Assembly (NCBI GenBank): GCA_023145835.1
Contig: JAGLDH010000063.1
Span: 1-64,000, forward strand
DNA from: Methylococcales bacterium
GTDB taxonomy: Bacteria > Pseudomonadota > Gammaproteobacteria > Methylococcales > Methylomonadaceae
DNA: 64,000 nt
Direction of reading: 5' to 3'
Part shown: piece after piece, positions 60,970-63,932 of the stretch
How positions within the stretch are numbered: position 1 is the first letter of the stretch
Layout: every line of letters begins with the position of its first letter
Notes under the pieces: model-generated
Database searches by the model: none
Seen by the model: only the letters and a program-made list of their open reading frames with translations
Told to the model about the DNA's origin: nothing
Made by a program: the position numbers and the translations under genes

Positions 60970-63069
60970 GTGCTTAAAACAGTTTTTGGTTACGATAATT
61001 TCAGGGGACAGCAAAAAGATATTATTGAACAACTGATATCCGGTCAAGATGCATTAGTCTTAATGCCTACAGGCGGAGGAAAATCTTTATGCTATCAAAT
61101 TCCTGCTATCGTTAGATCAGGGGTTGGTATTGTTATTTCCCCTTTAATTGCATTAATGCAAGACCAAGTCAGCGCTTTACATTTATTAGGTGTAAAAGCT
61201 GCCTTTCTTAACTCCACCTTATCTATGGATGAAGCAAGGCTAGTAGAAAACCAATTAAAAAAGGGGGAACTTGATCTTCTGTATATTGCCCCAGAAAGAT
61301 TAACATCAGAATGGACTCAATCTCTATTCCAACGAATTAATATTTCTTTATTTGCCATTGATGAAGCACATTGTGTATCGCAATGGGGGCATGATTTTCG
61401 CGTGGATTATCTTCAACTTTCTTTATTGCACGAGAAATTCCCAGCTATCCCCAGAATTGCTTTAACCGCCACGGCGGATGAAAAGACTAGAGAAGAAATT
61501 ATTAAGCGACTTGCCCTGGAGCAAGCAAAATCTTTTATTAGTGGATTTGATCGTCCTAATATTCGTTATCGAATTGTTCAAAAGCAAAATGCTAAACAGC
61601 AGTTACTTCACTTTATCAGAGCTGAGCATTCAGGTGACGCAGGTATAATTTATTGTTTATCTCGAAAAAAAGTAGAAGCAACAGCTGAATGGTTAGCAGG
61701 AAAAGGGATCAATGCTCTACCCTATCACGCACGTTTAGCCAATAAAGTAAAACAACAAAACCAACATCGTTTTTTAATGGAAGAAGGTATTGTTATTGTT
61801 GCCACTATCGCGTTTGGAATGGGAATCGACAAACCTAATGTACGTTTTGTTGCTCACTTGGATTTACCTAAAAGTATCGAAGGTTATTACCAAGAAACAG
61901 GGCGTGCTGGACGTGATGGAGAACCGGCTAACGCTTGGATGGCTTATGGCTTACAGGATGTTATTACATTACGCAAAATGTTGGGTGACTCCAATGCTGA
62001 TGAAACACATAAGCGAGTAGAATTTCATAAACTTGAATCTATGCTAGCCTTATGTGAGCTTGTAAGCTGCCGTAGGCAAGCTTTACTCGCCTATTTTGGG
62101 GATGAACTCAAGGAAAATTGTGGCAATTGCGATACCTGTTTAGAGCCGGTACAAACGTGGGATGGAACTACCCCAGCTCAACAAGCCCTCTCCTGCATCT
62201 ACCGAACAGAACAACGTTTTGGCGTTAATTATCTAATTGAAGTCTTACTAGGTAAACCATCTGAAAGAATGATTAGCTTTGGACATGATAAACAATCAAC
62301 TTTCGGGATTGGTAAAGATATTGACGAAAAACAATGGCGTTCGGTCTTCAGACAATTAGTAGCCAAAGGTTATGTAGAAATTGATTTTGATGGCTACGGT
62401 GCATTTAAACTAACCGAACAATGTCGCCCTATCTTACGTGGAGAACAAACTCTCATGTTACGTAAAGATATTGCTCCAGAAAAAGGGCGGCGTAAAAAAG
62501 GTGATAAGCGGGTTATTCAACAAAATGAAAACAATTTATTGTGGGATGCTTTGCGAGCAAAACGTCGAGAGCTGGCTGATAAGCAAGATGTTCCACCTTT
62601 TGTTATTTTTCACGATGCGACCTTAATGACTATGATGGATGAAAAACCTAGTAATTTACAACAAATGAATGCTATTTCAGGTGTCGGTGAAAAGAAACTC
62701 GAACTCTATGGTGATGAGTTTTTACAAGTTCTTCAGCAATTTGAAAACGATGACTTAACCGACACAGTTGCTGAATCAATCTCATTATTTAGATTGGGCT
62801 ATACCGTAGAAAAAGTATCAAAGCAGCGTCAATTAAAAGAAGACACTATATACAACCATTTGTCACAAGCCATAGAAGATGGAGGGATAGAATTAACTGA
62901 AGTGATTGATTTAGGTCAAAAAGAAATTGATCAAATAGAAGAAGCTATCATCAACCTACCAGACGATCAGAAAAATGCCCTAAAACCACTATTTGAGTTT
63001 TTTGATGAAACGTATAGTTATGGTGTATTACGCTGCGTAAGAGCAGGATTCCAGCTTAAAACAGAATAA
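60970..63069 (+). CDS. recQ: ATP-dependent DNA helicase RecQ
   Basis: 699 aa from the GTG at 60970. Motif I is [15 protein letters not shown], motif [17 protein letters not shown] and motif [15 protein letters not shown]. The zinc site is [11 protein letters not shown] followed by CGNCDTC, then the RQC winged helix, an HRDC domain (about 520-595) and a C-terminal helix-turn-helix ([20 protein letters not shown]). The true start is probably upstream: the frame is open to 60922 and would read [14 protein letters not shown] before the GTG. A GGAG lies 6 nt before an ATC at 60925. A target duplication of a MITE-like element starts right after the TAA. Confidence 0.96.
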
Positions 63070-63317
63070 AACTATTCCTGATTACCCATAACCTTCCGCC
63101 AATTTAGAGTTCATTGCTCGCATGAACTTTAGAGTCTATCTTGCATCAATATTTTTCGGGTTGAAAGAATGAATTAAAAAAGGGAAAAAACAGTTTTTTC
63201 CATCCGTTTAAAATTTTCTTTGTATTCTTGTTTTTTAAAAGCAATATTAATTCAATTGGTTATAAGGTATTACTCTTCATGGATTTGGCGGAAGCAAGTA
63301 AGTAATCAGGAAACTAT
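63070..63317. mobile_element. MITE-like insertion with 6-bp target duplication
   Basis: AACTAT occurs directly at 63070-63075 and 63312-63317. Between them a 236-bp element begins TCCTGATTAC and ends GTAATCAGGA. The terminal inverted repeats continue as a second block, TTCCGCCAA, after an 8-nt variable spacer, giving 27-bp bipartite ends. It codes for no transposase. It inserted just after the recQ stop codon. The short length and target duplication fit a miniature inverted-repeat transposable element. Confidence 0.8.
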
Positions 63318-63491
63318 TTACGATAATGAATCGTTGCTTAGACATACACATAATTACAGGAAAACTACAAAATTGCTTGTACGTGATACATAAAAATCAG
63401 CCATTGTTTATCCGTAGAAACTCAAACTAATAGTGACCCGTTTTTTCAGGGTGTCTGCTAGATTAGATTTGAGTTACTACAAATAAGAATC
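63318..63491. other. Remaining gap between the MITE-like element and DUF1249
   Basis: A short AT-rich stretch without ORF or clear terminator. Nothing else is seen; recQ and the DUF1249 gene converge here. Confidence 0.4.
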
Positions 63492-63932
63492 CTATTTATA
63501 CCCTATACTTCGAAACTCATAATTAGTTTGCAGACAGTGATCTAACCATTTTTGTAAAAAATAATTTAATCGCCATTTATAATTCATTATTTCGACACTT
63601 TTACTTGGGTCTTTATAAACCATTGATACAGTAGGTCTAACATAATCCTTTAAAACTTCTGCAAGATTAGCATCTAAATAAATTCTTATTTTGACAGCAG
63701 GTTCCATAAAGCCATCTAGGTTTTTATCAAACTGGTGGCTAAGTTCAACCGTTAATGTATGCTTTGTACGGTCAATTATTTTCAAATATAAGGAAGGTTT
63801 GTTATTGGTTTTTCCTGTAGCCTGACTTTGGAAAGAACATAAATCTGGAATAAGACTAAATAGCTTTTTATAGTTAGATTCACACAGCTTCTCTAAACAT
63901 AAGGATGTATTGACAGGGTGAACCAGACTCAT
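63492..63932 (-). CDS. DUF1249 (YqiB-like) family protein
   Basis: 146 aa. The block LCESNYKKLFSLIPDL near the start and the acidic/aromatic LNYFLQKWLDHCLQTNYEF at the end fit DUF1249/YqiB, a small cytosolic family of unknown function often found near nudF and cpdA. Those genes would lie beyond the right edge of the window. The start ATG at 63932 has no strong Shine-Dalgarno. Confidence 0.85.
   Translation of the reverse strand: MSLVHPVNTSLCLEKLCESNYKKLFSLIPDLCSFQSQATGKTNNKPSLYLKIIDRTKHTLTVELSHQFDKNLDGFMEPAVKIRIYLDANLAEVLKDYVRPTVSMVYKDPSKSVEIMNYKWRLNYFLQKWLDHCLQTNYEFRSIGYK

Follow-up and report, generated by a model that had tools for sequence, protein, structure and literature searches.

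A short repeated element downstream of recQ in a Methylococcales bacterium as a probable IS1595-derived MITE

Introduction

The closest described counterparts of the element reported here are insertion sequences (ISs) of the IS1595 family and MITEs of bacteria and archaea, and their features are summarised below. Target-site duplications (TSDs) in the IS1595 family are usually 8 bp long, and an N-terminal zinc finger is found outside the IS1016 group (PMC8101967); TSDs of 8 bp are usual in the IS1016 group as well (PMC10045372), and A/T-rich 8-bp repeats are given for ISApl4 (PMC12561309). An IS1595-derived MITE is listed with ISHwa6 for Haloquadratum walsbyi, with a length of 165 bp, 7 copies, IR 25 and DR 8 (PMC3852290). 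In addition, QMITE2 of Coxiella carries terminal inverted repeats (TIRs) of 23-29 bp and direct repeats of 7-9 bp (PMC10969869).

In this study, we analysed a window of 64,000 nucleotides (positions 1 to 64,000 of contig JAGLDH010000063.1, assembly GCA_023145835.1) from a Methylococcales bacterium, in which a short repeated element follows recQ. Going by its published description, the H. walsbyi MITE resembles this element in being short and in having IS1595-type ends and 8-bp duplications, but it differs in its archaeal host and in its size (PMC3852290). QMITE2, likewise compared by description and with no kinship implied, is also AT-rich and intergenic, with TIRs, duplications and a hairpin-forming transcript (PMC10969869). 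A search of the open-licence literature on IS1595 MITEs, on IS1595 in Methylomonas and on methanotroph MITEs brought up no paper that deals with this MITE. The MITE is thus newly noticed, and its kind, the IS1595-derived MITEs, is already in print.

Results

The gene recQ (60970..63069, + strand, stop codon TAA at 63067-63069) is intact and encodes 699 aa. Comparison of the copies in the genome fixed the ends of the element at CCTGATTAC, and the mobile unit therefore extends over 63077-63310, a MITE of 234 bp with the ends CCTGATTAC...CTTCCGCCAA. Two copies of the 8-bp TSD AAACTATT flank it, the left at 63069..63076, overlapping the recQ stop codon by one base, and the right at 63311..63318. 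One TIR (63077..63104, + strand) corresponds to the right end of the IS described below, and the other (63283..63310, - strand) corresponds to its left end, the spacer between CCTGATTAC and CTTCCGCCAA having diverged in the latter. An inverted repeat 3' of recQ has 28-bp arms that are 79% complementary and 182 bp apart. There is no ORF of at least 60 aa within the 234 bp, hence no transposase ORF.

A first-pass annotation of this DNA had described a MITE-like element after recQ, with matching ends, a second block TTCCGCCAA and a flanking duplication, all of which are present in the sequence. The duplication had been given as the 6-bp AACTAT, which proved to be the inner part of the 8-bp AAACTATT; a 6-bp duplication was rejected, since 8 bp is the length that gives a near-perfect match across copies. 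The ends, given as TCCTGATTAC, do match each other, but their boundaries had to be moved, because the first T and the last A fall in the duplications.

The insertion left recQ undamaged, as had been proposed. The first base of the MITE lies 8 bp past the last base of the stop codon, no recQ codon is touched, and the reading frame closes at about the same point as in orthologues: those of six congeneric genomes are 79-83% identical and align with it as far as residue 695-699. The next gene downstream, a DUF1249 gene (63492-63932), is convergent to recQ. In none of the six relatives with a recQ orthologue did the flank after recQ, which covered only about 640 bases in one of them, contain a match to DUF1249. 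Two further genomes in the genus yielded matches only to helicase paralogues, not to a recQ orthologue. Nothing corresponding to the window's sequence past recQ was seen in the six relatives, so the search for an empty site found none.

Searching the window's own genome with the element gave 26 matches, comprising 8 full-length copies, 2 copies cut short (on contig C59, at the contig end, and on C234), 2 old relatives (C57, 68% identity; C209, 67%), 13 end-only matches and 1 interior match inside the IS gene. The first-pass annotation had staked its case on further copies and on an IS with the same ends, and both were found in this genome. The seven full-length copies besides the one in the window show 92-98% identity. 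All eight carry an 8-bp duplication (six perfect, two with one mismatch), and no ORF of at least 80 aa runs across any of their sites when these are rebuilt as empty by joining the flanks. Since the eight copies share the same length of 233-235 bp and the same interior and have separate duplications, the short unit itself must have moved. Among the old relatives, the flanks of C209 match at 6/8, and the ends of C57 are degenerate and could not be called by the flank script.

The ends and the duplication exceed chance. Over 15 elements (this MITE with 8 copies, a sibling MITE with 6, and 1 IS), the two flanks match at 8/8 in 13 and at 7/8 in 2, compared with 8/8 in only 2/210 pairs in which left and right flanks were taken from different elements. 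Genome-wide, the end motif with up to 2 mismatches occurs 72 times.

The IS lies at G000:C85:10521-11550 of the window's genome; it is intact, 1030 bp long, has the same ends as the MITE and is flanked on both sides by the 8-bp duplication AAGCATTT. Its 315-aa protein has an ISXO2-like DDE domain (Pfam DDE_Tnp_IS1595 PF12762, 1.6e-35, 122.8 bits, cut-off 27) and an N-terminal zinc ribbon (Zn_ribbon_IS1595 PF12760, 1.9e-16, 60.2 bits, cut-off 25.4), and matches NCBIfam transpos_IS1595 NF033547 (3.1e-66, 223.3 bits, cut-off 75). Together with the 8-bp duplication, the DDE domain and the zinc ribbon place it in the IS1595 family. All 7 sequences in an alignment of this protein and six homologues conserve DD in QLDDVYWGG, D in SDG, and N and K in WVNTMIGNVK. 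We take these residues to be the catalytic set, of DDNK type. An IS481 origin, suspected from a gene fragment beside the solo end C22:9041-9065, was rejected, the intact IS being of IS1595 type and the C22 end a fragment.

At its left end, the MITE shares 28/29 bp with the right end of that IS, and positions 63-86 of the MITE consensus (63225..63248 of the window, - strand) are identical to positions 223-246 of the IS in 23/24. These 24 bp, a leftover of the transposase gene, are collinear with the IS, order kept, in reverse orientation, and they are the only clear sharing apart from the ends. None of 60 dinucleotide-shuffled MITE cores matched as well (observed score 21, best shuffled score 12). 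Taken together, the end, the collinear interior match and the shuffles make derivation by deletion from a sister of this IS the best reading of the MITE. The exact parent is not this IS, the only intact one found in the genome: the CTTACTT spacer at the other end of the MITE is missing from the left end of the IS and was seen on none of the five intact ISs examined. Four of the features expected of a MITE were thus observed, namely a short gene-free unit, TIRs matching those of an autonomous element, the TSD length of that element and several copies at different sites, which bears out the first-pass annotation.

The same type of end is found in annotated ISs. Among 370 plasmid records matching the transposase, four were opened, with ISs from Marinobacter, Aeromonas (ISAeca5-like), Shewanella and E. 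coli (ISEc70-like), and in all four the ends start with CCTGATTACC, the duplications are perfect over 8 bp and the lengths are 1018-1033 bp. The transposases of these four ISs are 58-73% identical to that of the IS on C85. Like the MITE in the window, the ISEc70-like and ISAeca5-like elements have bipartite ends (second block mostly TCAGCCA) and 8-bp duplications; unlike it, they are autonomous and carry a transposase. As the four ISs share the end type, such ends are what IS1595 elements of this kind normally carry as terminal repeats. What the first-pass annotation termed a bipartite end is thus nothing more than the terminal repeat usual in this group.

Two sibling MITE families with the same end type were found in the genome. 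The second family, of 182-183 bp, has 8/8 duplications in 6/6 copies examined (G000:C22:14116-14298, C219, C109, C241, C224 and C85; L021-L024, L026, L028), and its consensus has perfect 25-bp inverted ends. The third, of 206-207 bp, has the ends CCTGATTAGCAAGAATCTTCCGCCA and was examined in four copies (G000:C36, C37, C199 and C233; L100, L102-L104), of which three show 8/8 duplications and one has 4 mismatches. The third MITE also has a match in the end of a second IS of IS1595 type, which extends beyond the edge of contig C85, and several single ends of this MITE lie near contig ends, suggesting that the repeat breaks the assembly. From 15 sites of the first two MITEs and the IS, a symmetric target, TA-AANNNNTT-TA, was obtained. 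Before the duplication there is T or C in 14/15 sites and then A in 14/15, the seventh base of the duplication is T in 15/15, and directly after the duplication come T in 14/15 and A in 13/15. The site in the window, TA-AAACTATT-TA, conforms to this pattern.

In other genomes, the element including its ends gave matches in 14/61 genomes, mostly via the ends, and transposase matches (E up to 1e-20) were obtained in 48/151 genomes of the family, the window's own genome being counted in both. Scanning 27 loci for ends in pairs identified, in four related genomes (L081, overlapping L042; L082; L084; L086), intact ISs that are 1028-1033 bp long, share this end type, have 8/8 duplications and match the transposase. 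Furthermore, a gammaproteobacterial MAG (JAFLJY010000222.1, L067:5062-5296) contains a full-length relative of 235 bp, 68.75% identical to the MITE consensus and flanked by a perfect 8-bp duplication, so the length is constant despite high divergence. No transposase relatives were confirmed in viral contigs. Another MITE, of 186-187 bp with the same end type, perfect 8-bp duplications and an internal CGTCATTCCCG-type palindrome, was observed in G003:C298 (L031:1344-1530) and G004:C272 (L035:1504-1689). Both assemblies are fragmented and gave no transposase match at E up to 1e-20, so these MITEs look like orphans.

Discussion

Our analyses argue with high confidence for a non-autonomous, IS1595-derived MITE that was probably moved in trans and inserted after recQ with an 8-bp duplication. 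The further copies and the intact parent-type IS with matching ends in the same genome make it an ordinary MITE, and the interpretation of the first-pass annotation is upheld with its boundaries corrected. The MITE would have arisen by internal deletion of an IS1595-family IS. An IS1595 transposase, encoded by an IS at another place in this genome or in an earlier one, would bind both bipartite ends (CCTGATTAC, spacer, CTTCCGCCAA), and the 234-bp unit would then be inserted at 8-bp staggered cuts in AT-rich targets such as TA-AANNNNTT-TA, giving rise to the 8-bp duplication. At this locus, the insertion would have occurred directly past the recQ stop codon, between recQ and the convergent DUF1249 gene, with neither harmed. 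A related transposase would have mobilised the MITE in trans, and the IS on C85 itself, rather than a lost sister, may have been the source of that transposase.

Three other explanations were weighed. First, the element could be a functional repeat kept by the host, REP/ERIC-like and acting as an RNA 3' end or regulator, rather than a selfish element. The RNA of the whole element folds far better than shuffles (-64.9 kcal/mol, z -5.1), and relatives of 233-235 bp with about 67-69% identity occur both in this genome and in a further gammaproteobacterium, both of which would suit such a role. However, inverted ends by themselves favour a hairpin, and a covarying RNA structure was rejected on an alignment of 11 copies and relatives, in which the RNAalifold covariation term was slightly unfavourable (+0.29) and only 6/52 pairs showed a double change. 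An intrinsic terminator or promoter inside the MITE was rejected as well, no terminator-like site having been found, and an Rfam search of the element gave no match at E up to 1. We therefore consider a host-kept repeat very unlikely. The MITE would be included in the recQ transcript; its serving as the 3' end of recQ mRNA is possible but unsupported.

Second, the locus could hold the remnant that random deletion left of a full IS decaying in place, not a moving unit of 234 bp. The MITE does retain 24 bp of the transposase gene, and decayed IS pieces exist in the genome. Yet eight copies of 233-235 bp with a common interior each have their own duplication, and these separate duplications refute decay in place, to which we give hardly any credence. 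Third, the duplication and the matching ends could have arisen by chance in DNA that looks AT-rich by eye and in which short repeats are common. This is refuted to the point of being negligible by the eight copies, by the 72 end motifs against 0 in the reversed control and by duplications of at least 7/8 in 15/15 elements against 8/210 mispaired flanks.

Beyond the IS1595-derived MITE itself, a broader proposal joins several of these observations: a lineage of MITEs that keep a length of 233-235 bp might have persisted, mobile in its own right, across gammaproteobacterial lineages down to about 67% identity, its ends tracking successive IS1595 transposases and its copies, such as the one after recQ, serving as hairpins at mRNA 3' ends. 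We regard this as an improbable, speculative combination.

These results settle the type of mobiliser for a repeat on which annotation would be silent. In addition, the genome offers a compact test bed for non-autonomous elements driven by IS1595, with one intact IS, three MITE families and a clear 8-bp target rule (TA-AANNNNTT-TA). The test bed is otherwise ordinary and belongs to a GTDB genus with a Methylomonas-labelled MAG among its members; G008, another member of this genus, shares exact 500-base stretches with JALSLW010000012.1 (Methylomonas sp.).

A minor observation concerns the protein end of the IS. The stop codon of the transposase and its last residues, KLAEAYG, are encoded within the right terminal repeat of the IS (L028:2099-3046), and a KLAEAYG-like ending recurs among the aligned transposase homologues, so that the terminal sequence and the C-terminus of the protein may constrain each other.
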